Of a stretch of 64,000 nt of DNA, positions 12,879-25,864 are shown piece by piece. The stretch spans positions 9,610,001 through 9,674,000 of the forward strand of contig NZ_CP102770.1 of NCBI RefSeq assembly GCF_038561935.1, given 5' to 3'. Numbering within the stretch: position 1 is the first letter of the stretch; each line of letters begins with the position of its first letter. Below the pieces are notes generated by a model that had not been told where the DNA came from, searched no databases, and was given only the letters and a program-made list of their open reading frames with translations. The position numbers and the translations under genes are program-made. The DNA is from Myxococcus stipitatus (lineage in GTDB: Bacteria; Myxococcota; Myxococcia; Myxococcales; Myxococcaceae).

Positions 12879-15800
12879 ATGGAGGACATGGCTTTCACGG
12901 GCGAGGGCGAGATGTGGCAGTCGCCGGGCACCGAAGGGCTGCGGGAGATCCACCGGGGACGGCGGTACGTCGTCCTGCGGACGTGGGGACAGGACGGCGT
13001 CCCGCTGGTCCTCAAGCAGGTGCGCCAGGGACCGCTCGCCGCGGGCAGCGCGGCCATGCTGCGCCACGAGTACGCGCTCCTGCGCGAGCTGCGCGACACC
13101 GTGCCGCACCTCGCGCGGGCCCGCTGGCTGGAGGACCTGCCTCCGCGCCTGCCCGTGCTCGCGCTGGAGGACAGCGGGCCGCAGAGTCTCCAGGGCTGGC
13201 AGCACCGCAGGCCCTTGGAGGTGGACGTCTTCCTGGAGCTGGCCCTCCAGGCCACCGGCATCCTCGCCGCGCTCCACCACCAGCACGTCATCCACCGGGA
13301 CATCAACCCCACCAACCTGGTGATGAGCCCCGACGGCCGTCACCTCACCCTCGTCGACTTCGACCTGGCCACGCGCGTCTCCGGCCTCGCGCCCTCGGGG
13401 GGAATGCCCGCGGAGCTCCAGTGGGTGCTGCCGTACATCGCCCCGGAGCAGACGGGGCGGATGAACCGGCCCATCGACCACCGCGCCGACCTCTACTCGC
13501 TGGGCGCCACGTTCTACGAGCTGCTCACCGGCCAGCCGCCCTTCACCTCCTCGGACCCGGTGGAGCTGGTCCACGCGCACCTCGCCCGCGCGCCCGTCCC
13601 TCCCACCTTCATCAACCCCACCCTCCCCCGTGTCATCGCGAACATCGTCCTCAAGCTGCTCGCGAAGATGCCGGAGGAGCGCTACCAGAGCGCCGACTCG
13701 CTGCTCGCGGACCTCCAGGAGGTGCGCCGGCGCCAGGCCCGACACGCGCCGGAGGACTTCGAGCTGGGACGGCTGGACCTGGCCCGACAGCTCTCGCTCC
13801 CGGAGCGCCTCTACGGCCGCGAGCCCCAGCAAGCCGAGCTGCGCGCCGCGCGAGAGCGCGTGCGCCGAGGCACCAGCGAGCGGGTGCTGCTGTCCGGCGC
13901 GGCGGGCATCGGCAAGTCCGCGCTCGTCCATGACCTGTCGCGCGACGCGGCGCCGGGAGACCGGCTGCTGACGGGCAAGTTCAACCAGCTCCAGGGCAAT
14001 GTCCCCTACTCCGCCTTCGTCCAGGCGTTCCAGGGGCTCGTGCGCGAGCTGATGGAGGAGCCCCCCGAGGCGCGCGATGTCTGGCGTCAGCGCCTGCTGG
14101 GCGCGCTGGGGCCTCACGCGCGAGTCATCACCGATGTCATCCCCGCCCTCGAGGAGCTGCTGGGCCCGCAGCCCCTCCCGCCCAAGCTGGGGCCGGTGGA
14201 GGCCGCCGCGCGCTTCCACCTCCTCTTCCAGTCCTTCGTGCAGGCGCTGGCGACACCTCGGCACGCGCTCGTGCTGTTCCTGGATGACCTCCAGTGGGCG
14301 GACCCGGGCTCGCTCCAGCTCCTCAAGAGCCTGTGTGGAGACCCGGGCTCGCTGCACCTCCTCTTCATCGTCGCGTGGCGTCCGCAGGAGCTGGGGCCGG
14401 AGCCGCTCCTGCCTCGCGTCCTGCGCACGCTCGACGAAGAGGGCGCCATTCCCGCGCGGGCCTTCGAGCTGGCGCCGCTGGATGACGCCGCCATCACCTC
14501 GCTGTGCGCGGACACCTTCCGCCGCCAGCCCGAGGACGTCGCCCCCCTGGCCCGGCTGCTGCTGCGGAAGACCGCGGGCAATCCCCTCTTCCTCACCCGC
14601 CTGCTGCGGATGCTGCACGGCTCCGGCCTGCTGGGCTTCGACTGGGAGCACGGCACGTGGACCTGGGAGCTGGAGCAGCTGGAGCGCGTGGAGGTGACGG
14701 AGAACGTGGTGGAGCTGATGCTCGACGCCATCCGTCGGCTCCCGGAGCGGGCCCAGCATGTCCTGGAGGTGGCCGCGTGCCTGGGGGACCGAGTGGAGCT
14801 GAGGGTGCTGTCGGCCCTCGTGAAGGAGCGCGACGAGGACGCCGCCTCCGCGCTGTGGACCCTGCTGCGCGAGGGCCTGCTCATCCCGGAGAACGAACCG
14901 CCCCACCCTCGCGCGCCGCCGGATGCCTCCGCGCCGCAGGAGGCCATCTATCGCTTCGCGCATGACCGCGTCCGGCAGGCCGCGTACTCCCTGCTCACCG
15001 AGGACCAGCGCGCGGAGCTGCACCGCGCCGCGGGACAGTGGCTGCTGCGCAGCGCGCGAGGCGAGGTGCTGGAGGAGCGCCTCTTCTCGGTGGTGGACCA
15101 CCTCTACCGGGGCCTGGAGAAGTCCCAGGACGTCGCCGAGCGACAGGCGCTGGCGGAGCTGCTCTTCCGCGCGGGCCTCAAGGCCAAGGCGGCCTCCGCC
15201 TTCGGCACGGCACTGGTGTACCTCACGCGGGGCCTGTCCCTGCTGCCTTCCACCGAGTGGCCTCGGCGCCACGAGCAGCTCTTCCAGGTCCACAAGGAAG
15301 CCGCCGAGTGCGCGTACCTCTCCGGCAATGGCAGACAGGCCGAGGAGCTGCTCCACACCGCCCACGAGCACGCCGCCTCCGCGCCCCGCAAGGTGGACCT
15401 GTACGTCCTCCAGGTGCTGGCCCACCTGCTCAATGGCCACTACGCGGAGGCCGTCCGCGCGGGCCAGGAAGGGCTGCGCCTGTTCGGCATGGAGCTGCCG
15501 GAGGAGGGCTATACCCAGGCCCTCTCCGCCGAGCTCGGGCACGTGGAGCGCCAGCTCCGAGGGCGCGCGGTGGAGGAGCTGCTGAACGCGCCGCCGATGG
15601 AGGACCCGAGGCACCTCGCGTGTGTCCAGCTCCTCTCGGAGCTCGTCACGCCCGCGTACTTCGTCGACCCGGACCTGTATGCGTATCTCAACACGCGGGC
15701 CCTCGCGCTGACGCTGGAGCAGGGCAACTCCCGCTGGGCGCCTTCCGTGTATGCCTATCACGGCACGCTGCTGGCGAGCCGGGGCGACGCGGCGCGCGCC

Positions 15801-18596
15801 GAGTCCTTCTGCCACCTGGGCATCTCCCTGGCGCGGCGCATGGGGGACTCGCGGCAGGAGTGCCGGGCGCTCGTGACGCTCACGCTCAACATCAACCACT
15901 GGCGCGCGCCCCTGCGCACCAACCTGTCCCTGCTGCGGCGGGCCATCACCACGGGCCTGGCCAGCGGAGACCTCCAGTACACCAGCTACGCGCTCGCCAA
16001 CGTCGTCACCACGGAGCTGGCCATGGGCACCGAGCTGGTGCGCATCCTCGGCTCCATCGACACCAGCCTCTCCTTCGCCCGGCGCAGCGGCGTGCAGGTG
16101 ATGGCGGATGTCTCCGTCCTCTACCGCCAGGCCATCCGCGCGCTCCAGGGACGCACCCACCAGCTCGCGCGCCTGGATGATGACGACTTCGTCGAGAAGG
16201 ACTTCCTCGCCTCCGGGCAGATGGCGCACACGAGCCTCTACCTGCGCTCCCTCCTGCGGCTGTTCGTCGCCTACGTCCTGGGAGATTTGGACGAGGCCGC
16301 GAGGATGTCTCGCGAGGTGCTGCCCTACGTCCACTTCGCCCAGGGCTTCTTCCGCAACGTCGACTTCAACGTGCTGACCTCGCTGACGATGCTGGCGCGC
16401 GCCACCCGCATTCCCCAGGAGCGGGACGTGGCGCTCACCGCCGTCGAGGAGAACCAGCGACAGCTGGGCGCCTGGGCGGACCTGTGTCCGGAGAACTTCC
16501 GCCACAAGCACCAGCTCGTCGGCGCCGAGGTGGCCCGCGTCGAGGGACGGCCCCTCGAAGCCATGGGCCTCTACGACAGCGCCATCGACGGCGCGCACCT
16601 CCAGGGCTTCCTCCATGACGAGGCCATCGCGAACGAGCTGGCGGGACGCTTTCATCAACACCTGGGACACAGGCGCTTCGCCTCCCTCCACCTGCGCGCG
16701 GCGATGGACTGCTTCACGCGCTGGGGGGCCCAGGCCAAGGTGACGCTGCTGGAAGAGGAGTTCCCGGAGCTCAAGAGCATCGTCGACCGCCCGTGGACCG
16801 AGCCGGGCATGCCCCACACGAGCCTGGGCGCACCGGGTGCGTCGCTGGACCTGCTCACGCTGCTCAAGGCGTCCGAGACGCTGATGGGCGAGGTGGTGCT
16901 GGACCGGCTCCTGGAGAAGCTGATGGCGGTGTGCTTCGAGGCCGCGGGCGCCACGCGCGGCGCGCTGGTGCTGGAGGAGGAAGGCACCTTGCAGGTGCGC
17001 GCCGTGGGCGCCATCTCCGAGCCCGTCAGCCTGGAGCACACGCCGCTCTCGGAGTCGACCCAGGTGCCCGTCTCCCTCCTGGAGCACGCGTGCCGCACCG
17101 GCGAGACGCTGGTCCTGGCCGATGCCGCGCACCAGGGCCGCTTCATCCAGGACGCCTACGTCATCCGCCGGGCCGTGAAGTCCGCGCTGGCCATTCCCAT
17201 CCAGCGGCATGGGAAGACCGCGGGCGTGCTCTACCTGGAGAACGACCTGGCCACCCGCGCCTTCACCCCGGAGCGGATGGGACTGCTGCGGACGCTCTCC
17301 TCGCAGATTGCCATCTCGCTGGAGAACAGCCGCCTGTTCGAGCAGCTCCACGTCGAGGTGAAGGAGCGCCGCCGCGCCGAGGAGGCCGTGCGCTTCCTGG
17401 CCGACTCCGGGCTCGCGCTGGCGGAGTCGCTGGACCTGGAGAAGACCCTGGCGCAGGCCACGCGCCTGGTGGTGCCCTTCCTCGCGGACTGGTGCACGTT
17501 CTCCGTGGTGGACCGAGGAGACGAGCTGCGCATGCTGGCCGCCGTCCACGTGGACCCGGAGAAGGACCGCCTGCTGCATGCGCTGTACGAGGAGTACCCC
17601 ATCGACTGCACCTCCCCTCCCGCCATCGTCCACGTGCTGCGCACCGGCCAGCCATTCCTGCGCGCCGAGGTCACCCAGTCCGTGCTGCGGGAGCACGGCC
17701 ACGGCCAGGACTACGTCGAGCGGATGCGGGAGCTCCACCCTCGGGCCGCCATGCACGTGCCCCTCATCGCCCGAGGGAAGATTCTCGGCGTCGCCACCTT
17801 CGTCTCGTCCACCCCCGGGCGGCGCTATGGACAGGTGGACCTGGACCTCGCGCAGGAGCTCGCCCGGCGCGTCGCGGTCTGCATCGACAACGCGCGCCTG
17901 TATCGCGAATCCCAGGACAGCATCCGCCTGCGCGACGAGTTCCTCAGCGTGGCGTCGCACGAGCTGAACACGCCGCTCACCTCCCTGCGCCTCATGGTGC
18001 AGACGCTCCTGCGCCACGTGCCGCCGGAGCTGCCCCCGCTCGCGGTGCGCAGCCTGCGCACGCTCGACAAGCAGAGCGCGAAGCTCACCACGCTGGTGGG
18101 GGAGATGCTCGACATCTCCCATCTCCAGGCGGGCCGGATGGACCTGCACCTGTCGCTCGTCGACCTCGCGGACGTCATCGACACCGTCGCCCGGCTCCTG
18201 CGTGAGCCGCTCCAGCGCGCGCACTGCGAGCTGGAGCTCCAGGTGGAAGGCCCGCTGGTGGGCCACTGGGATGGCACCCGACTGCAACAGGTGCTCGTCC
18301 ATCTGGTGTCCAACGCCCTCAAGTTCGGGCCGGGCAAGCCCATCACCCTTCGCGCCTGGGCCGATGACCGCACCCACGTCCACGTGAGCGTCCAGGACGA
18401 GGGCATCGGCATCTCCGCCGACCAGCTCCCGCACATCTTCGAGCGCTTCGAGCGAGCCGTCTCCGTCCGCGCCTACGGCGGGCTCGGGCTGGGACTGCAC
18501 CTGGCGCGGGAGATCATCAGCGCGCTGGGCGGGAGCATCGACGTGGAGAGCACACCGGGCGTGGGCAGCACGTTCACACTCACGCTCCCCAAGTAG
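12879..18596 (+). CDS. Giant Ser/Thr kinase - AAA ATPase - GAF - GAF - histidine kinase fusion
   Basis: A 1905-residue cytoplasmic signalling protein. Domain order: eukaryotic-like protein kinase (about 20-285; Lys46, catalytic loop HRDINPTN with Asp141, activation region ending APEQTGRMNR); an AAA/NACHT-like ATPase (about 310-600; Walker A GAAGIGKSA at 340-348, Walker B LVLFLDDLQWAD); a long helical TPR-like region (about 640-1310); two GAF domains (about 1335-1490 and 1510-1675); HisKA with His1694 in SHELNTPL; and a complete HATPase with VSNALKFGP, DEGIGIS and GLGLGLHLA. The kinase magnesium motif is DFD (160-162) rather than DFG. This matches a known trifunctional family found in myxobacteria and cyanobacteria. 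There is no receiver domain nearby, so the phosphotransfer partner is elsewhere. It is convergent with the gene at 18615. Confidence 0.93.
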   Translation: MEDMAFTGEGEMWQSPGTEGLREIHRGRRYVVLRTWGQDGVPLVLKQVRQGPLAAGSAAMLRHEYALLRELRDTVPHLARARWLEDLPPRLPVLALEDSGPQSLQGWQHRRPLEVDVFLELALQATGILAALHHQHVIHRDINPTNLVMSPDGRHLTLVDFDLATRVSGLAPSGGMPAELQWVLPYIAPEQTGRMNRPIDHRADLYSLGATFYELLTGQPPFTSSDPVELVHAHLARAPVPPTFINPTLPRVIANIVLKLLAKMPEERYQSADSLLADLQEVRRRQARHAPEDFELGRLDLARQLSLPERLYGREPQQAELRAARERVRRGTSERVLLSGAAGIGKSALVHDLSRDAAPGDRLLTGKFNQLQGNVPYSAFVQAFQGLVRELMEEPPEARDVWRQRLLGALGPHARVITDVIPALEELLGPQPLPPKLGPVEAAARFHLLFQSFVQALATPRHALVLFLDDLQWADPGSLQLLKSLCGDPGSLHLLFIVAWRPQELGPEPLLPRVLRTLDEEGAIPARAFELAPLDDAAITSLCADTFRRQPEDVAPLARLLLRKTAGNPLFLTRLLRMLHGSGLLGFDWEHGTWTWELEQLERVEVTENVVELMLDAIRRLPERAQHVLEVAACLGDRVELRVLSALVKERDEDAASALWTLLREGLLIPENEPPHPRAPPDASAPQEAIYRFAHDRVRQAAYSLLTEDQRAELHRAAGQWLLRSARGEVLEERLFSVVDHLYRGLEKSQDVAERQALAELLFRAGLKAKAASAFGTALVYLTRGLSLLPSTEWPRRHEQLFQVHKEAAECAYLSGNGRQAEELLHTAHEHAASAPRKVDLYVLQVLAHLLNGHYAEAVRAGQEGLRLFGMELPEEGYTQALSAELGHVERQLRGRAVEELLNAPPMEDPRHLACVQLLSELVTPAYFVDPDLYAYLNTRALALTLEQGNSRWAPSVYAYHGTLLASRGDAARAESFCHLGISLARRMGDSRQECRALVTLTLNINHWRAPLRTNLSLLRRAITTGLASGDLQYTSYALANVVTTELAMGTELVRILGSIDTSLSFARRSGVQVMADVSVLYRQAIRALQGRTHQLARLDDDDFVEKDFLASGQMAHTSLYLRSLLRLFVAYVLGDLDEAARMSREVLPYVHFAQGFFRNVDFNVLTSLTMLARATRIPQERDVALTAVEENQRQLGAWADLCPENFRHKHQLVGAEVARVEGRPLEAMGLYDSAIDGAHLQGFLHDEAIANELAGRFHQHLGHRRFASLHLRAAMDCFTRWGAQAKVTLLEEEFPELKSIVDRPWTEPGMPHTSLGAPGASLDLLTLLKASETLMGEVVLDRLLEKLMAVCFEAAGATRGALVLEEEGTLQVRAVGAISEPVSLEHTPLSESTQVPVSLLEHACRTGETLVLADAAHQGRFIQDAYVIRRAVKSALAIPIQRHGKTAGVLYLENDLATRAFTPERMGLLRTLSSQIAISLENSRLFEQLHVEVKERRRAEEAVRFLADSGLALAESLDLEKTLAQATRLVVPFLADWCTFSVVDRGDELRMLAAVHVDPEKDRLLHALYEEYPIDCTSPPAIVHVLRTGQPFLRAEVTQSVLREHGHGQDYVERMRELHPRAAMHVPLIARGKILGVATFVSSTPGRRYGQVDLDLAQELARRVAVCIDNARLYRESQDSIRLRDEFLSVASHELNTPLTSLRLMVQTLLRHVPPELPPLAVRSLRTLDKQSAKLTTLVGEMLDISHLQAGRMDLHLSLVDLADVIDTVARLLREPLQRAHCELELQVEGPLVGHWDGTRLQQVLVHLVSNALKFGPGKPITLRAWADDRTHVHVSVQDEGIGISADQLPHIFERFERAVSVRAYGGLGLGLHLAREIISALGGSIDVESTPGVGSTFTLTLPK

Positions 18597-18614: not shown

Positions 18615-19028
18615 TCAGCCGGGCATCGGACGGGGGCTGGGGCTCTCCTCCTTCTCCTCGTCGCCGAAGATGAGCCAGCGACGCGCGGGGGCCTCCTCCC
18701 AGAAGCGGCGCAGGATCTTGTCCGTGTGGCTGTTCTCCGCGACACGGTTGAGCTGGAGCGCGACGAGCTCGCTCTCCACCAGCTCCGCCACCCGCACCAC
18801 GCCGGAGCGCAGGCCGTACTCCTGGACCCGGCGAATCATGTTCGCGGCCTCCGGCGAGGCGGGCCGCAGGGTCCTCAGGTCCGCCTTGATTTTGATATCA
18901 CGCCCCGACAGCGAGGCCGTGGCCCTCTCCAACTCCTGAACGAAGGACTCCATCTCCTGGACGCGGATGTAGCCATCCAGGACGAACTCCACGATGGCGT
19001 GCTCGCCATCGACGTCGATTCGGAACAC
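18615..19028 (-). CDS. Small STAS/SpoIIAA-like conserved protein
   Basis: A 137-residue acidic cytoplasmic protein. It begins MFRIDVDGEHAIVEFVLDG and alternates strands and helices in a way that recalls STAS-like or SpoIIAA-like small regulatory folds, but no diagnostic phospho-Ser motif is evident. The assignment is therefore by pattern only. The C-terminal 20 residues are an acidic, proline-rich tail. It is the last gene of a minus-strand group (GRAS protein, CinA, this gene) and abuts the kinase fusion tail to tail (18 bp), so an accessory role for either is conceivable but unproven. Confidence 0.7.
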   Translation of the reverse strand: MFRIDVDGEHAIVEFVLDGYIRVQEMESFVQELERATASLSGRDIKIKADLRTLRPASPEAANMIRRVQEYGLRSGVVRVAELVESELVALQLNRVAENSHTDKILRRFWEEAPARRWLIFGDEEKEESPSPRPMPG

Positions 19029-19118: not shown

Positions 19119-19616
19119 TCACGATTCGACGCTCATTTTCTCCAGCAACAACGTGAGCGCGCGCTCGGCCATGGCGTGGCGCACCTGACGCCTGTCGCCC
19201 GTGAAGACCTGGCGCTCGACGGCCGCGGTTCCTCCTCGGCGAAGGACCGCGATGAAGGCCAGTCCCACGGGCTTCTGGGGCGTGCCGCCCCCCGGCCCCG
19301 CGATGCCCGTCTCCGCGATGGCCCAGTCCGCGCGAGAGTGCTCCAGGGCCCCGCGCGCGAGCGCCTCCACGGCCTCCGCGCTCACCGAGCCATGCGCCTG
19401 GAGCAGCGCCAGGGGCACCCCGAGCTGTTCCACCTTGGACTCATGGGAGTACGGCACGAAGCCACGCTCCACCACGGCGGAGGCTCCTGGGATGTCCGTC
19501 AGCCGCGCGCAGAGCAGTCCGCCCGTACACGCCTCCGCCAGCACCAACCGCACACCAGCGGCGCGACAACGCTCCAGCACCTGCCGCGCGAGCTCCTCGA
19601 GTGCATCTCCCGTCAC
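19119..19616 (-). CDS. CinA-family nicotinamide-nucleotide amidohydrolase
   Basis: A 165-residue enzyme corresponding to the stand-alone CinA C-terminal (PncC) domain, which deamidates nicotinamide mononucleotide in NAD recycling. Family motifs are clear: LAEACTGGLLCARLTDIPGAS near the N-terminus, YSHESKVEQLGVP in the middle and ETGIAGPGGGTPQKPVGL. A GTG start at 19616 is preferred because GGGAGG lies seven bases upstream and the protein length then fits the family; the open frame extends 36 codons further but that part is low-complexity. It lies between the GRAS gene and the STAS-like gene on the same strand. Confidence 0.88.
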   Translation of the reverse strand: MTGDALEELARQVLERCRAAGVRLVLAEACTGGLLCARLTDIPGASAVVERGFVPYSHESKVEQLGVPLALLQAHGSVSAEAVEALARGALEHSRADWAIAETGIAGPGGGTPQKPVGLAFIAVLRRGGTAAVERQVFTGDRRQVRHAMAERALTLLLEKMSVES

Positions 19617-19720
19617 GCGCTTGCCTCCCGCTCCCGGAGTCGGAAGCCTCCGTCCTCCTTTCCCACGCCCGGACCGCACACGCCACCGAGGAGGCGTGTC
19701 GCCCGGCACGCTCCCGCTCC

Positions 19721-20827
19721 TCACGCCCTCGCGATATCCGGTCGCACGGCCAGCACCGCCACCAGCACCTCCTCGCGCCAGCTCAGCCCCACGAGCCCCG
19801 GCGCCCGTCGCAGCGTCAGCGCCGGGTGGACCCCCTCCGGCCGCAGCCGCTCCATGGACTCCAGCGGCACGAACCCCGCCCGACGCAGCCGCGCCATCCA
19901 GGTCGCCGCCAGCTCATGCCGCTCGCAACGCGCGGCCTCATCCACCGTGCCCACCACGTCCTCCACCTCGCGCCCGAAGAAGCGCTTGATGGCGGCGCGC
20001 TCGTCGCTCGGTACCCCCAGCGTGTCCAGCAATTGAAAGACATGCGTGAAGTGCCGCCACGCATGCTGGAAGCGCGCGAGCGGCGAGGCCGCGAAGTGGT
20101 CCGTGTTCGGCTCGGACAACACCAACCCCACCGGCTCCAGCGCACGCAGGTGCCGGAGCACCGCATCCCGGGCCGCCCCCGGATGCCCCGGCTCCTCCGC
20201 CACGTGATGCATCGCGAACGCCGCGTTCACCACCCGAGGCCCCGGCAGCTCACGCAGCCGCGACCACGTCGCCTCCGTCACCGCCTCCACCGGCGCCTCC
20301 ACGCCCACGAAGCGCACCACTCCACCCACCTCGCGCGCCACCTGCGCCACCGCGGACTCCGCCTGCTCGAGGCTTGCGCCGCTCGGGTCCACCCCCACCA
20401 AGGTCAGCCTGCGCGGTAGGACTCCCCGCTTCGACAGCAACCTCAGCAACCGCCCTTCCTGCCGCCCCTGCCCGATGCCCACGTCGACGAGCGTCGCCTC
20501 ACTCCGACTCCCGAGCAGCTCCTCCAGCACCGCGTTCGCCAGCACATCCGCCGTCGCCGCCAGCGGCATGTACGTCATCAGCGAACGGAACAGGTCGATC
20601 TGCCGCCCACCCTCCCCCCGTGGATTCAGATAGGGATTGCGAGCCCCCGAGCCCTCCAGCCGATGCGCCACCGCCATCGCGAACAGGTGGTAGCCCAGGT
20701 CCTCCGGCACCACGTCCACGTCCAGCCGCGACTCCAACGAGCGCAACGCCCGCCTCGCCTCCACGGCCCTGCCCGCGACGGCATGCTCCATCGCCCGGAA
20801 GAGCAGCTCCTCCTTTGACGTGCGCAT
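19721..20827 (-). CDS. Bacterial GRAS-family protein (Rossmann methyltransferase-like)
   Basis: A 368-residue protein whose landmarks follow the plant GRAS family, best known from gibberellin-signalling DELLA proteins. A conserved helical segment (about 78-105) precedes a Rossmann motif VDVGIGQGRQ (114-123), equivalent to the plant VHIID/QGLQW region. SEPNTDH (238-244) leads into ARFQHAWRHFTHVFQLLDTL, the counterpart of the plant RF...YYSALFDSL segment. FFGREVEDVV (283-292) with ERHE and the C-terminal LSWREEVLVAV match the RE/SAW region. Bacterial GRAS proteins are thought to be small-molecule methyltransferases or ligand binders. The ATG at 20827 follows AAGGAG. It heads a possible three-gene unit with CinA and the STAS-like gene, divergent from the TonB receptor. 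Confidence 0.8.
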   Translation of the reverse strand: MRTSKEELLFRAMEHAVAGRAVEARRALRSLESRLDVDVVPEDLGYHLFAMAVAHRLEGSGARNPYLNPRGEGGRQIDLFRSLMTYMPLAATADVLANAVLEELLGSRSEATLVDVGIGQGRQEGRLLRLLSKRGVLPRRLTLVGVDPSGASLEQAESAVAQVAREVGGVVRFVGVEAPVEAVTEATWSRLRELPGPRVVNAAFAMHHVAEEPGHPGAARDAVLRHLRALEPVGLVLSEPNTDHFAASPLARFQHAWRHFTHVFQLLDTLGVPSDERAAIKRFFGREVEDVVGTVDEAARCERHELAATWMARLRRAGFVPLESMERLRPEGVHPALTLRRAPGLVGLSWREEVLVAVLAVRPDIARA

Positions 20828-21120
20828 TCCCCTGCGCTCCTTCCCCCCAGGGCCCCCACCCCGCTTCAACAGTAATGGTGCCCTCCAGTCGCCTCCACGC
20901 AGGCAGCGCGCCCGTGCCCCTTGTCCGTGGGGTGCCACACACGCAGTCGCACGTCTGGACAGTCCTCCCAGCTCACACGCCTCCGGATTCCACCGAAAGC
21001 GATCACCTCGGGCCTAACCGGAAGATGTGGACTCCCCCGCACCGAGGGGCGAGCCTCCCCCCTCCTGCTGGCGTGCCCACCAGGTGACAGTTCTCGAGTC
21101 CTCAGGTGTTGAGGGAGTCC

Positions 21121-23889
21121 ATGAAGTTTCATCGTGACGTCGTCCGTGTCCTCCTGCTGGTGGCCCTCTGGCCTGGCCTCGCGTGGACACAAGGCCTTCC
21201 CTCGCCCGCGACCGGGTCGCGCGAGGTGGAGGTCGAGCTCCAGAACCAGGACGGAGGCACCGCGCTCTCCGCCGAGGACGCGAAGCGGCTGGGCCTCGCC
21301 CCCGACAGCAGTGACACCCAGCTGGTGCCCCCCACGCTGGTGACGCCCTCTCCCGCCGCCTGGCCCGAGGGCCTGGAGGGCACCCCGGGCGAGGTCGTGC
21401 TGGAGCTGCTCGTCAGCACCGAGGGCACCGTCGCCGACATCCAGGTCGTCGCCGCGCCCCAGGAGCCTCGGCTCACCGAGGCCGCGCGCCAGGCCGCATC
21501 GGGACTGCGCTTCACCCCCGCCACGCTGGCCGGCGCCCCCGTCGCGGTGCGCCTGCCCTTCATCTACCGCTTCGAGCCCCCCGCCGCCCCCGTCCCCGCC
21601 GCCACCGCGCGCCTCACGGGCGAAGTGCGCGCGCGAGGCACCCGCCGCCCCGTGGCCGACGCCACCCTCTTCGTCGACGGCAGCACCGAGCCCGTGGGCG
21701 CCGTGGACGCAGAGGGCCGCTTCGCCGTGGAGCTGAGCCCCGGTCCCCACAAGGTCGAGGTGCGCGCCCCCGGACACCAGCCCGGCCAGTTCGAGGAGAC
21801 CCTCGCCGAGGGCCAGTCCCTCCAGGTCATCTACCGGCTCCAGCCCGGCCGCGTGAATCCCTACGAGACGGTGGTGCGCGATGACCGGCCTCGCACCGAG
21901 GTGACGCGCATCACCCTGCACGAGCAGGAGATTCGCGAGGTGCCCGGCACGCTGGGCGACCCCTTCCGCGTCGTGATGCTCATGCCCGGCGTGGGCAGCC
22001 TCGCCTCGGGCATCAGCTATCCGGTGGTGCGCGGCAGTCAGCCGGCCGCCACCGGCTTCTTCCTCGATGGCGTGCGCATCCCCATGCTGTACCACCTGCT
22101 GCTGGGGCCCGCGGTGGTGCACCCGGACTTCATCGACACCGTCGACTTCTTCCCGGGCACGCCGCCGGTGCAGTACGGCCGCGTCCTGGGGGGCGCGGTG
22201 GAGGGCCGGCTGAGCCGTCCTCGCGAGGACCGGCTGCACTTCACCGCGTACGCGGACCTGCTCAACAGCGGCGGCTTCATCGAGTACCCGTTCGAGAGCA
22301 CCGGCACCTCCGTCAGCGTCGCGGGCCGCATCAGCTACTCCGCGCTGCTGATAACGGTGGGCTCCAAGCTCGCGACGGGCTCCAGCGACGCGGGCGTGTA
22401 CGCCAACTTCTGGGACTACCAGGCGCGCATCGAGCAGAAGGTGGGCCAGGGCCGGCTGCGCCTGTTCGCCCTGGGCAGCTCCGACAGCGTGGGCTCCACG
22501 CCCGGCACGGACTACGAGGGAGACCTGGGCGTCGGCATCGCCTCCCGCTTCCACCGGGCGGACCTGCGGCTGCTCCATCCCCTCGCGGAGGGCGAGCTGG
22601 AGGTGGGCACCACCGTGGGCGTCGACGCCATGGGCCTCGTCGGCGAGGAGTCGTACCAGCGCCCCAACGGCGCGGGCATGGGCCGCCGCGAGGTGGGCGA
22701 GTACGGGATGAACCAGGTGAGCTTCTCCGCGCGCACCAGCTGGAAGCGCCGGCTGCATGAGACGCTGGAGCTCATCGTGGGCGGTGACGTGGAGCACCGG
22801 CGCGCCGCCACGAAGATGACGGGCACGGGCATTCCTCCCGGCACGCGGCCGGAGGACTCGGCCGACCCGCTCAAGCGCCCTTCCTCGCTGGCGACCTTCT
22901 CCGGCGCGTACGCCACCGTGACGTGGCTGCCTTCGGAGGCGTGGGTGCTCCAGCCCGGCGTGCGCGTGGACAGCTACCACTTGTCACCGGGCATCCAGCA
23001 CACCGTGGTGGAGCCGCGCCTGTCCGTCCGCCGACGCCTCACGGAGACGCTCGTGGTGAAGGGCGGCGCGGGCCTGTTCCACCAGCCGCCCACCGTGCTG
23101 CTGCACCTGCCCGCCGTGGACACCGCGAGCCTTCGCTATGGCCTCCAGGAGGGAGTCCAGCTCGACGTCGGCGCCGAGTGGAAGGCGATGGAGGGATTGG
23201 AGCTGAGCGGCGACGTCTTCTACAACCCCATCTCCCGCGCGGTGGAGCTGGACCTGCAACAGGTCGCGGAGAACCGCCGGCGCGGAGGCGTGGGCGCGAC
23301 GTCACCCGCCTCGAGCGGATATGCGTATGGCTTCGAGCTGATGGCCCGGCACCCGCTGGGCCGCGACTGGTTCGGCTGGGTCTCCTACAGCTTCCTCCAG
23401 AGCAAGCGCCGCGTGCGCATCGACCGGTATGGAGATGACAACCGCGTGGTGGGCTCGGAGAAGGTCACCCTCCCCTTCGCCTTCGAGCAGGCCCACGTGC
23501 TCAACGCGGCGGTCAGCTACAAGTTCGGCAACAACTGGACGGTGGGCACGGTGTTCCACTTCAACACCGGTCGCCCGGAGGCCGGTGAAATCACCAGCCT
23601 CACGCAGCGGCTCGTCACCCGGCCCGACGGAGAGCAGCAATGGGTGCGGCAGGACCGGGACCGGGCCGAGCGTCTGGACTCCTTCTTCCGCGTGGACCTG
23701 CGTGTCGCCAAGTCGTGGGCCATGGAGGACTTCACGCTCGACGCCTACCTGGACGTCCTCAACGTGTCGGCCCAGAAGGAAGTCGTGGCCTACGAGTATG
23801 GCTTCAGCTTCGCCACCAACGCCGCCGAGCGGAAGCCCACCCACATCCCCATCATCCTCCCCCTGTTCGGCCTGAAGGGGACCTACTGA
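21121..23889 (+). CDS. TonB-dependent outer-membrane receptor with N-terminal TonB_C-like domain
   Basis: A 922-residue outer-membrane receptor. ATG at 21121 follows GGGAG and starts a cleavable signal peptide (about 1-24). Residues about 88-152 look like a TonB C-terminal domain (GEVVLELLVSTEGTVADIQVV...LRFTPATLAG). Residues about 163-242 form a carboxypeptidase-regulatory-like (CNA-B/peptidase-associated) domain. From about 258 the plug follows (EIREVPGTLGDPFRVVMLMP, DGVRIP) and the rest is the beta-barrel, ending in aromatic-rich strands. The cargo is unknown. The lipoprotein gene starts one base after its stop, so the two are co-translated. The upstream 293 bp is shared with the divergent GRAS gene; no Fur box was recognised. 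Confidence 0.9.
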   Translation: MKFHRDVVRVLLLVALWPGLAWTQGLPSPATGSREVEVELQNQDGGTALSAEDAKRLGLAPDSSDTQLVPPTLVTPSPAAWPEGLEGTPGEVVLELLVSTEGTVADIQVVAAPQEPRLTEAARQAASGLRFTPATLAGAPVAVRLPFIYRFEPPAAPVPAATARLTGEVRARGTRRPVADATLFVDGSTEPVGAVDAEGRFAVELSPGPHKVEVRAPGHQPGQFEETLAEGQSLQVIYRLQPGRVNPYETVVRDDRPRTEVTRITLHEQEIREVPGTLGDPFRVVMLMPGVGSLASGISYPVVRGSQPAATGFFLDGVRIPMLYHLLLGPAVVHPDFIDTVDFFPGTPPVQYGRVLGGAVEGRLSRPREDRLHFTAYADLLNSGGFIEYPFESTGTSVSVAGRISYSALLITVGSKLATGSSDAGVYANFWDYQARIEQKVGQGRLRLFALGSSDSVGSTPGTDYEGDLGVGIASRFHRADLRLLHPLAEGELEVGTTVGVDAMGLVGEESYQRPNGAGMGRREVGEYGMNQVSFSARTSWKRRLHETLELIVGGDVEHRRAATKMTGTGIPPGTRPEDSADPLKRPSSLATFSGAYATVTWLPSEAWVLQPGVRVDSYHLSPGIQHTVVEPRLSVRRRLTETLVVKGGAGLFHQPPTVLLHLPAVDTASLRYGLQEGVQLDVGAEWKAMEGLELSGDVFYNPISRAVELDLQQVAENRRRGGVGATSPASSGYAYGFELMARHPLGRDWFGWVSYSFLQSKRRVRIDRYGDDNRVVGSEKVTLPFAFEQAHVLNAAVSYKFGNNWTVGTVFHFNTGRPEAGEITSLTQRLVTRPDGEQQWVRQDRDRAERLDSFFRVDLRVAKSWAMEDFTLDAYLDVLNVSAQKEVVAYEYGFSFATNAAERKPTHIPIILPLFGLKGTY

Positions 23890-23890
23890 C

Positions 23891-25186
23891 ATGCGCAGAC
23901 TGCTCCCGTCCTTGTGCCTCCTCGCGCTGCTCGGCGCCGGCTGCGACCGCATGCCGGAGGACCCCGTCTTCGTCTACGGCAACCTCCAACACCTGGATGG
24001 CTCGCCGTACGCCAATGTGCCGGTGGCGCTGGAGCGCAAGGCGTACTCGCGCGCCGTCTACGGGCCTCCGTCCTCCACGCCCGAGACCTTCACTCCCTAC
24101 GCGGAGTTCCAGAGCGACCAGCGCGGGGACTACGTGCTGGAGGTCCTCTCCGGCGATACCACCCACGACAACGTCGATGGCTTCACCGAGTACCGCTTCC
24201 GGGTCGCCGCGCCCCTGGAGCAGGGCCACGGGGTCTACACGTCGTTCCAGTTCTGGGATGACGCGGAGGTGCCCCCGCTGCGGCCCTGGGAGCCTCGGCT
24301 GGTGGTGGCCCCGGGACAGGAGGGCCCGGTGCTGAGCTTCGCCAAGGCGCCGCCTCCGCCCGCGAAGCCCTACTCCGCGAAGCTGCCCCAGATTCTCCTC
24401 CCCGGGAGTCTGGAGATGCAGGAGGTCGACTCGCTCCCGCCCTATCCGGTGGTGCAGCTCTCGGGAGCGGATGGGCTGCTCTGGGAGGCGCACGACCCCG
24501 CCTCGCCCTGGCAGCCCAATCCCTATCAACTGGAGGACTTTCCAGGTGTCGCGGCGCAGGTCCGCGCTGTGTCGATGGGCACCTGGATGTTCGAGCCCCT
24601 GGGCGGCAGCGACAGCAGCGTGGCCTTCCGCGTGGAGTGGCGCGGGCCGCGTGAGCCCCTCCCCCCTGGCACCGTGCGCCCCGTCAGCCGAGGCGCCGTG
24701 TGCTACCCGTCGCCGGCCGATGGCCCGTGTCCGTACACGGATGGCTCGCTGCGCTCCGTGCGGACGAAGCCGGAGTCGCGCGACTCGGGCGTGAGCGAGG
24801 TGGTGGTCTCCTGGGAGGACGCCGTGCGGCCTCGGCGCATCGTCCTGCGCAACCTGGAGGTCGTGCTGGGCTACGACCCGTCCATCCATGTCTTGTTGGA
24901 GGGCAGCATGGATGGCTCCACCTGGTCGCCACTCGCGGACGTGCTCCACCAGAACTTCGACCCTCAGTCCCTCTTCGGCATCTTCGTCAACATCGCCCTC
25001 GATGGGACGGAGGACGACAGTCCCTATGGAGACGCGCCGCTGGACGTGCTCCACCGGGCTCGCTTCTTCGATGTGCCGCTCGCGGGCGACAGGCCTGCCC
25101 GCCATGTCCGGCTGCGGGTGGAGTCTCAGGACAGGAGCCGGACGCTGCCCGTCTTCTCGCTCGCGGAGCTGTCCGTGTTCGAGTGA
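23891..25186 (+). CDS. Lipoprotein partner of the TonB-dependent receptor
   Basis: A 431-residue predicted lipoprotein (lipobox LGAGC, Cys18). Its start lies one base after the stop of the receptor gene, which implies joint expression and probably joint function at the cell surface, by analogy with receptor/lipoprotein pairs in nutrient import. The N-terminal ~90 residues resemble a regulatory-like beta-sandwich (FVYGNLQHLDGSPYANVPV). The C-terminal ~160 residues look like a discoidin/F5-8-type binding fold, with VLLEGSMDGSTWSPLAD and a final ARHVRLRVES strand. No catalytic motif is apparent. The family was not otherwise recognised. Confidence 0.75.
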   Translation: MRRLLPSLCLLALLGAGCDRMPEDPVFVYGNLQHLDGSPYANVPVALERKAYSRAVYGPPSSTPETFTPYAEFQSDQRGDYVLEVLSGDTTHDNVDGFTEYRFRVAAPLEQGHGVYTSFQFWDDAEVPPLRPWEPRLVVAPGQEGPVLSFAKAPPPPAKPYSAKLPQILLPGSLEMQEVDSLPPYPVVQLSGADGLLWEAHDPASPWQPNPYQLEDFPGVAAQVRAVSMGTWMFEPLGGSDSSVAFRVEWRGPREPLPPGTVRPVSRGAVCYPSPADGPCPYTDGSLRSVRTKPESRDSGVSEVVVSWEDAVRPRRIVLRNLEVVLGYDPSIHVLLEGSMDGSTWSPLADVLHQNFDPQSLFGIFVNIALDGTEDDSPYGDAPLDVLHRARFFDVPLAGDRPARHVRLRVESQDRSRTLPVFSLAELSVFE

Positions 25187-25291: not shown

Positions 25292-25864
25292 TTGCCGACG
25301 AGTCCCTCGAAGAAGATGTCGTTGCTGACGGAGCCCGAAGCCCGGCTCGTGTTGTCCAGCTCGCCTCGCAACCTGGTGGAGCTGTCCGCGCGGGACCTGC
25401 GCGGCCGCATCCTGCGCGCGCGCAAGTTGATGCGGAAGTACCAGGACACCGCGAGGCGCCAGCGACGAGAGGCCCTGCGCAAGCGCACGCCGACCCGCTC
25501 CCGTCGCGCGGAGGGCAACGCGAACACGGTGCGCAAGGCGCTGTACTTCCAGCAGGCGCTGTCCCGGTTCGAGAAGCGGCTGGCCCTGGTCGAGCGCCAG
25601 GAGGCTCGGGCGGCAGCGCTCGCCAAGCGGAAGATGGCGAAGCCTCGCAGGGCGGTGCGGACGAAGCGGGCCACCACGGGCCGCAAGCCCGTGCGCAGGA
25701 CTCGGACGGCGGGGAAGACGGCGACGGCGTCTCAGCGGAGCATGAAGGCGCAGCGTCGCAAGGGCGGCGCGCGCAAGCAGCAGGGCTTCGCCGCGGTTCG
25801 ACGCAACTCCCATGTCGTTGCTCGCAACCGTCGGACCCAGGCTCGGAAGGACTCCCGGCGCTGA
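25292..25864 (+). CDS. Highly basic histone-like protein of unknown function
   Basis: A 190-residue protein dominated by Arg, Lys, Ala and Gln, with no signal peptide. A TTG start at 25292 is chosen because AAGGAG ends seven bases upstream; the alternative ATG at 25316 lacks a comparable site. Residues about 1-110 predict as helical with an RRILRARKL-type amphipathic character, and the C-terminal 80 residues are a disordered, Arg/Lys-rich tail similar to histone H1-like or other nucleic-acid-condensing tails. DNA or RNA binding is an inference from composition only. It is followed closely by a possible micro-ORF. Confidence 0.7.
   Translation: MPTSPSKKMSLLTEPEARLVLSSSPRNLVELSARDLRGRILRARKLMRKYQDTARRQRREALRKRTPTRSRRAEGNANTVRKALYFQQALSRFEKRLALVERQEARAAALAKRKMAKPRRAVRTKRATTGRKPVRRTRTAGKTATASQRSMKAQRRKGGARKQQGFAAVRRNSHVVARNRRTQARKDSRR

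Follow-up and report, generated by a model that had tools for sequence, protein, structure and literature searches.

Within a stretch of 64,000 nucleotides of Myxococcus stipitatus DNA (contig NZ_CP102770.1, positions 9,610,001–9,674,000 of the forward strand; referred to here as the window, and the source of all coordinates below) are three adjacent genes on the minus strand. They encode a GRAS-domain protein (19721–20827), a stand-alone CinA/PncC-type domain in which the catalytic serine is replaced by alanine (19119–19724), and a SpoIIAA/STAS-like protein of 137 residues (18615–19028). Above the GRAS gene is a divergent intergenic region of 278 bp (20828–21105), which, judging from the gene layout, is the probable promoter region of this cassette.

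On the far side of the intergenic region, the stretch 21106–25186 holds, on the plus strand, a TonB-dependent receptor with TonB C-terminal-like and carboxypeptidase-regulatory domains and, directly after it, a 431-residue protein without a Pfam match. A 190-residue protein (25292–25864, plus strand) has a long Lys/Arg-rich tail, histone H1-like by eye, and also adjoins TonB and lipoprotein genes in other Myxococcus-type loci. Converging on the 3′ end of the cassette is a gene for a hybrid signalling protein of 1,905 residues (12879–18596, plus strand), comprising Ser/Thr protein kinase, AAA_16, GAF and histidine kinase domains; it is so placed in only a few close relatives.

The GRAS protein

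The GRAS gene is a complete open frame running from ATG to stop on the minus strand and encoding 368 amino acids. Its start at 20827 is backed by the orthologous loci: all 44, counting that of the window, have a start codon at the identical aligned position (ATG in 34, GTG or TTG in 10; the start nearest to the aligned position was picked by script). The preliminary description had recognized the family by a series of short motifs, and all of these are found in the order given there: VDVGIGQGRQ, SEPNTDH, ARFQHAWRHFTHVFQLLDTL, FFGREVEDVV, ERHE and WREEVLVAV. The profile search that it had proposed gives a match, far above chance level, to the Pfam GRAS profile PF03514 of 116.2 bits (E 2.1e-33, cut-off 27), spanning profile positions 3–330 of 374 and beginning at protein residue 7. 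No Pfam family other than GRAS matches at E ≤ 0.01, and the NCBIfam profile search returned no family. Searched by sequence against the PDB, the protein retrieves OsSCL7 (E 9.8e-15), DELLA, SCL3, SCR and SHR. Profile, sequence similarity to solved plant GRAS domains and the fold described below all bear out the family identity, and that 19721–20827 encodes a GRAS-family protein is, in our judgement, practically certain. The match is the only one in the host genome (10.17 Mb, two contigs), and the same search matched in 0 of 14 control genomes.

A model of the protein was predicted with AlphaFold2 from an alignment of 32 bacterial sequences (pLDDT 91.9, pTM 0.90). Compared with the PDB by Foldseek, the model has solved plant GRAS domains at all of ranks 1–12 (E 3.2e-22 to 8.6e-20); the next match is SgvM, a methyltransferase (E 9.9e-9). 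The comparison with plant GRAS crystal structures, which had likewise been proposed, yields a full-length fold match: VIA-align superposes the model on eight plant GRAS entries with Z-scores of 35.0–38.5 and an r.m.s.d. of 2.2–3.0 Å over 336–354 residues, and next among the matches listed are CmoA (Z 18.7) and then CysG/BelI (Z 18.3–18.5). A better match to another Rossmann methyltransferase family, named beforehand as counter-evidence, was not found, the best non-GRAS fold standing at 18.7 against 35.0–38.5. In the model, GRAS identity extends over the full length of the chain, the α-helical cap and the Rossmann core included. The entire fold, cap too, is common to the bacterial protein and plant GRAS proteins (SCL3, SCL7, RGA/DELLA, SHR/SCR), and what the bacterial protein lacks is a DELLA-type N-terminal extension, its GRAS match starting already at residue 7.

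Putative active site

Conservation was followed in two alignments, A3 (32 rows of bacterial GRAS proteins drawn from several phyla) and A1 (26 rows, with more paralogues). The SAM-binding motif I, LVDVGIGQGRQ, occupies residues 113–123 (20459–20491, minus strand); within it G117, G119 and Q123 do not vary in any of the 32 rows of A3, and D115 is Asp in 25 of 32. At the acidic end of strand 2 is D147 (20387–20389, minus strand), the expected contact to the SAM ribose, which is Asp or Glu in every row of both alignments (32/32 in A3, 26/26 in A1). With the glycine-rich motif I and the acidic end of strand 2, the marks of a class I methyltransferase are present in the bacterial GRAS proteins of A3. 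The pair H207–H208 follows strand 4 (20204–20209, minus strand) and E239–P240 follows strand 5 (20108–20113, minus strand); both pairs are invariant in all 32 rows of A3, as are E287 and W310. In A1, H207 is kept in 26 of 26 rows and H208 in 24 of 26, being replaced by Arg or Leu in two paralogue rows, and P240 is Thr in one.

In the aligned plant sequences, residue 147 is Pro (OsSCL7), Gly (DELLA1) or His (SCL3), and the histidine pair reads YH (OsSCL7), HT (DELLA1) or HK (RGA); bacterial GRAS, in contrast, keeps both the acidic residue and the two histidines. Because the SAM-site residues lost in the aligned plant proteins are kept, bacterial GRAS looks like a working methyltransferase, and from family, predicted fold and conservation together we consider it likely to be an active SAM-dependent enzyme. 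Against this can be set a role as a scaffold or regulator that binds SAM or another ligand without catalysis, as the plant proteins might suggest: the whole chain, cap included, folds as plant GRAS does, and plant GRAS domains, described in PMC5873383 as devoid of SAM motifs, bound neither SAM nor SAH in the calorimetry reported there. With the acidic residue 147, the GxGxG motif and the HH pair all kept in bacteria and absent from the aligned plant sequences, we regard such a non-enzymatic role as very unlikely.

The two histidines are candidate metal or substrate ligands. They recall the active site of the carboxyl methyltransferases CysG and BelI, for which PMC11408123 describes an adjacent His pair within a His-His-Asp (HHD) metal motif. 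The methyltransferase core is common to these enzymes and bacterial GRAS (Z 18.3–18.5 among the matches listed), as is the presence of an adjacent His pair; the match does not, however, extend over the full length of GRAS, and the likeness of the His pairs is one of adjacency.

Bacterial GRAS proteins were reportedly described in 2012 by Zhang, Iyer and Aravind (Bioinformatics), who are said to have predicted them to be SAM-dependent small-molecule methylases. The present protein has the GRAS domain, the methyltransferase fold and the SAM-site residues in common with the proteins of that study, and the methylase prediction fits. To our knowledge, a function as transcriptional co-regulator has been shown for GRAS proteins of plants only. 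The link to gibberellin raised earlier through the plant regulators found no echo, in that no result pointed there, gibberellin biosynthesis genes lying outside the searches. Assigning a bacterial protein to the GRAS family is not new, since bacterial members have been known since the 2012 study (cited in PMC9942845 and PMC5332381).

A three-gene cassette in Myxococcaceae

Flanking sequences were taken for 53 loci, of which one without a BLAST match (L078) and eight paralogous or distant ones (L054, L068 and L072–L077) were dropped. The remaining 44 orthologous loci, one per genome, represent five genera. At every one of them (44/44) the next recognized gene on the same strand after GRAS encodes a stand-alone PncC-type CinA, and in 36 of 44 there is a 4-bp overlap between the GRAS stop and a start codon in frame with CinA. 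A SpoIIAA/STAS-like gene is third in 39 of 44 loci, and the other five are on contigs that end first. Compared with seven same-genus relatives, dN/dS is 0.15–0.35 for GRAS, 0.08–0.22 for CinA and 0.12–0.44 for the STAS-like gene, an overall span of 0.08–0.44 in 21 comparisons (three genes, seven relatives); the cassette copies of CinA are under purifying selection. Small-molecule involvement, at which the neighbouring genes had been thought to hint, is strengthened by this conserved gene order. Loci of the Myxococcus/Pyxidicoccus and Corallococcus types have the divergent TonB receptor, and none was found beside GRAS in loci of the Hyalangium or Archangium types.

The STAS-like protein is much as first described, on a weak match to PF11964 that at 17.3 bits is below the cut-off of 25, so that the profile does not by itself assign the family. 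Its model is of middling confidence (mean pLDDT 71.2, 12 sequences). The best Foldseek match of this model is a SpoIIAA-like protein (PDB 2q3l, E 1.5e-4), and the anti-anti-sigma proteins RsbV, RsfB and SpoIIAA are among the further matches; query TM-scores are 0.42–0.63 for the best six listed. Of 96 genomes of the family, 46 have a close orthologue of the STAS-like gene (at least 59% identity), 44 have the cassette GRAS and 41 have both. The three genomes with GRAS only (G017, G021 and G031) are all cases of contig ends; the five with the STAS-like gene only are G079, G003, G041 and two fragmented assemblies, G019 and G023.

A CinA protein without its catalytic serine

The longest frame of the window CinA begins with a GTG at 19724 and so reaches 4 bp back into the end of the GRAS gene, over its stop codon; a GTG at 19616 is the likelier start, as the conserved part of the sequence begins near it. 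The domain matches PF02464 with 174 bits against a cut-off of 23.5, so the neighbour once called a NAD-related amidase does belong to the CinA family. It is probably no amidase, in that the catalytic Ser is absent: at the position of AtCinA S31 and E. coli PncC S29 is the alanine codon GCG (19530–19532, minus strand), leaving the window protein without the serine of the PncC Ser/Lys dyad. The same position is Ala in 42 of the 44 cassette proteins and Ser in two. In housekeeping full-length CinA, serine is found there in 23 of 23 copies (20 of 20 control copies and three more).

The ligand site, by comparison, is preserved. All six NMN-site residues (G46, S48, Y58, K63, T105 and R145) are present in the window CinA. 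Across the cassettes, all 44 proteins have E30, G35, G46 and S48, and 43 have Y58 and K63; the exception (L084, on a short MAG contig) is a gap. T105 is kept in 40 of 44 and R145 in 36 of 44, the remaining rows (4 and 8, respectively) lying beyond the alignment; among the 44 there is no NMN-site substitution at any covered position. Two positions beside the catalytic one vary slightly, C32 (Cys in 38, Ser in 5, Gly in 1) and T33 (Thr in 40, Ala in 3, Ser in 1). In the published YxNxxK block, N60 corresponds to His in the window and to Asn in 30, His in 11 and Tyr in 2 cassettes; it was left out as a test because housekeeping CinA has Glu (22) or Asp (1) there.

In a tree of 38 of the 44 cassette proteins (six rows being too short or with a stop), 15 solo copies and 23 housekeeping copies, the 23 housekeeping CinAs are on one side of a branch with support of 100/99, and the cassette and solo copies are apart from them. 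Since the cassette group alone needs 9 changes in this tree and the solo group alone 10, only the two together stand apart from housekeeping CinA. The program warned of a long branch (L209).

What the loss of serine entails may be gauged from laboratory mutants. In AtCinA, S31A left no detectable activity, even with the adjacent Cys in place, and did not alter the melting point; C32A was still active, marking the Cys as dispensable (PMC5384747). E. coli PncC S29A, for its part, is described as without catalysis while binding NMN with a Kd of 37–64 µM and NaMN about equally (PMC8231969). Naturally inactive PncC lineages of the YdeJ and YfaY types have, as reported in PMC3855486, lost binding-site residues such as G46, S48 or Y58, whereas the cassette protein has lost its nucleophile and keeps the binding site. 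With the serine gone and the NMN-site residues kept, unlike in the YdeJ and YfaY types, the loss appears to have struck the nucleophile selectively, which makes a pyridine-nucleotide binder the best reading of the protein. Thus, the cassette CinA has family and ligand-site residues in common with A. tumefaciens CinA (PDB 2a9s) and E. coli PncC and differs from them in the Ala at the catalytic position and in its place beside GRAS and STAS-like genes. By analogy with the mutants, we predict with good confidence that it has lost NMN deamidase catalysis and retains binding of NMN or NaMN.

Continued amidohydrolase activity, through another nucleophile or on another substrate, would be in keeping with retention of the remaining active-site residues, the catalytic Lys included, and with the Ser carried by two cassette members. 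We give it only a slender chance, given that AtCinA S31A is inactive despite the adjacent Cys (PMC5384747) and PncC S29A is non-catalytic (PMC8231969); C32, moreover, is not needed in AtCinA (PMC5384747) and is not fully conserved in the cassette.

CinA in genomes without the cassette GRAS

A further 17 loci (L146–L160, L163 and L164) were taken around CinA or STAS matches in the absence of the cassette GRAS. The catalytic site is readable in 15 of them, L163 being uncovered there and L164 having no CinA match, and the residue is Ala in 14 and Ser in one (L156). In another genome without GRAS (G074, locus L144) the catalytic position of CinA is occupied by Asp. Compared with a relative, G079 is missing about 254 bp of upstream sequence together with all of GRAS except its last 16 bp, and it retains the CinA start and the STAS-like gene; in G003, a remnant of the last 30 GRAS residues is immediately upstream of CinA (E 3e-9). 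Five same-genus relatives with small genomes (L146, L147 and L158–L160) have the Ala form of CinA near a GH15 gene, with no match to GRAS, TonB or STAS in the stretch around it.

Because the dead CinA persists where GRAS is lost (Ala in 14 of 15 readable loci; G079), the Ala form of CinA does not need GRAS as its neighbour. The notion that partnership with GRAS caused the death of CinA is unsupported by the same count of 14 of 15 readable loci.

GRAS genes and their neighbours in other bacteria

GRAS matches occur in 45 of 96 genomes and 5 of 26 genera of the host family, and in 47 of 195 genomes and 7 of 90 genera of the phylum. A wider survey, consisting of a one-pattern scan of named genomes, yielded 37 loci. 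Those within the family are from Myxococcus/Pyxidicoccus, Corallococcus, Citreicoccus, Hyalangium and Archangium. Beyond it, the scan found GRAS in Gemmatimonadota MAGs, Bacillota (Ectobacillus, Paenibacillus and Cohnella), Streptosporangium, a Burkholderiales MAG, Bacteroidota (Runella and Xanthocytophaga), an uncultured cyanobacterium, and Vampirovibrio, Spirochaetales and Myxococcota MAGs. GRAS is carried by 7 of 104 genomes in the family to which one Paenibacillus locus belongs, and by 8 of 21 in the family of one Gemmatimonadota locus. The preliminary description had called bacterial members few; they are indeed sparse, yet spread over several phyla.

Outside Myxococcaceae, CinA is near GRAS in 0 of 19 loci, within the stretch around each, which rules out GRAS–CinA as a general bacterial pairing. 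Instead, Gemmatimonadota have a V4R-like protein directly downstream of GRAS in 8 of 9 distinct loci (L246, L247, L249–L253 and L184, with L181 and L247 counted as one locus); the ninth (L248) ends at a contig edge. Seven of these small proteins were scanned, of which six match V4R, all below the cut-off, and one has no match. The conserved small V4R-like protein after GRAS constitutes a second candidate pair of GRAS and ligand binder. In Bacillota, where kinases are common, a histidine kinase and a response regulator resembling those of L182 and L187 are by GRAS in 4 of 11 distinct loci (L182, L187, L200 and L241); at L245 the kinase and regulator matches are weak and more distant, and the other six loci have none. 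In the Paenibacillus-type loci L187, L200 and L241, GRAS is flanked on one side by a divergent pair of response regulator and histidine kinase genes and on the other by a truncated-globin gene. In one genome of the Paenibacillus-type family (G278), GRAS is broken into two overlapping frames (L231 and L232), possibly through a frameshift or assembly error.

A kinase is beside GRAS in the Spirochaetales MAG, and in two MAGs of cyanobacterial type GRAS adjoins a glutamate-synthase-domain protein and an O-methyltransferase. Six large Myxococcus/Pyxidicoccus genomes carry a second GRAS copy (L072–L077), 30–35% identical to the window GRAS in the five that were aligned, and a DUF885 gene comes directly after this copy in each of them (by Pfam for two, by similarity for all six). 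That GRAS is always beside a sensor is only partly true (V4R-like in 8 of 9, kinase pair in 4 of 11, DUF885 in 6 of 6).

Discussion

We propose that GRAS, CinA and the STAS-like gene are inherited together as one module. In it, GRAS would be a SAM-dependent methyltransferase of small molecules, built as an α-helical cap over a Rossmann core with its SAM-site residues intact. The CinA/PncC protein, a dead NMN deamidase that would still bind NMN or NaMN, would report the pyridine-nucleotide level and act as a sensor on GRAS, or on the pathway of the GRAS product, and the STAS-like protein may serve as a protein–protein adaptor or output. The activity or output of GRAS would then follow the pyridine-nucleotide level. 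Action of the sensor on GRAS, and an adaptor or output role for the STAS-like protein, are suggested by the conservation of gene order, strand and overlapping stop and start codons, which are their only basis. Taken as a whole, the reading of a GRAS methyltransferase with a dead-CinA sensor of NMN or NaMN and a STAS-like adaptor is tentative, at a little under an even chance; for functional coupling of CinA and GRAS as such, judged from the arrangement of the genes, we would put the chances as evenly balanced.

Speaking against tight coupling are the two cassette CinAs with Ser, the slight variation at C32 and T33, the loss of GRAS while the dead CinA stays, and the other partners that GRAS has elsewhere. 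In a simpler arrangement, GRAS would just methylate small molecules in secondary or stress metabolism, the Ala form of CinA and the STAS-like protein would be transcribed and inherited with it but separate in action, and CinA would have a role independent of GRAS. Such separate action would agree with retention of the Ala form of CinA in GRAS-less genomes and with the unrelated genes that GRAS adjoins elsewhere (DUF885 at 6 of 6 paralogues, V4R-like, glutamate synthase domain and O-methyltransferase). It accounts less well for two findings: GRAS and CinA adjoin at every one of the 44 loci, across five genera and with stop and start overlapping in most, and 41 of the 46 genomes that have a close STAS orthologue also carry the cassette GRAS. 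We consider it rather unlikely.

The co-inherited module with a CinA sensor invites comparison with the gibberellin receptor of plants. GID1, according to PMC3531792, is a non-catalytic receptor that binds DELLA; the suggestion made there is that it arose from hormone-sensitive lipases and lost the active-site His in the process. The likeness is in logic only: a hydrolase-fold protein minus one catalytic residue, a ligand pocket that is kept, and a GRAS partner. The hydrolase folds are unrelated, the cassette GRAS is without the DELLA motif region, and the pairing here is known from genes alone; the parallel is one of logic, not of descent. That a bacterial GRAS methyltransferase is controlled by a dead hydrolase of the same operon sensing NMN or NaMN, the logic of GID1–DELLA having been reached independently, we hold to be distinctly improbable. 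No work on a gene set of GRAS with CinA and STAS was among the literature matches listed, in a search outside which most subscription papers lay.

The locus offers a candidate ligand (NMN or NaMN) and a candidate sensor whose lesion has a known effect from laboratory mutants, as well as a predicted enzyme whose SAM site is intact; the GRAS-less genomes that keep the rest are natural controls. Were the GID1–DELLA-like control of GRAS real, it would suggest that GRAS domains are prone to pair with ligand-sensing partners, of which the V4R-like proteins and two-component sensors in other phyla would be further cases. The cassette gives a testable lead on the role of GRAS in bacteria, and hence on the ancestor of the plant regulators.
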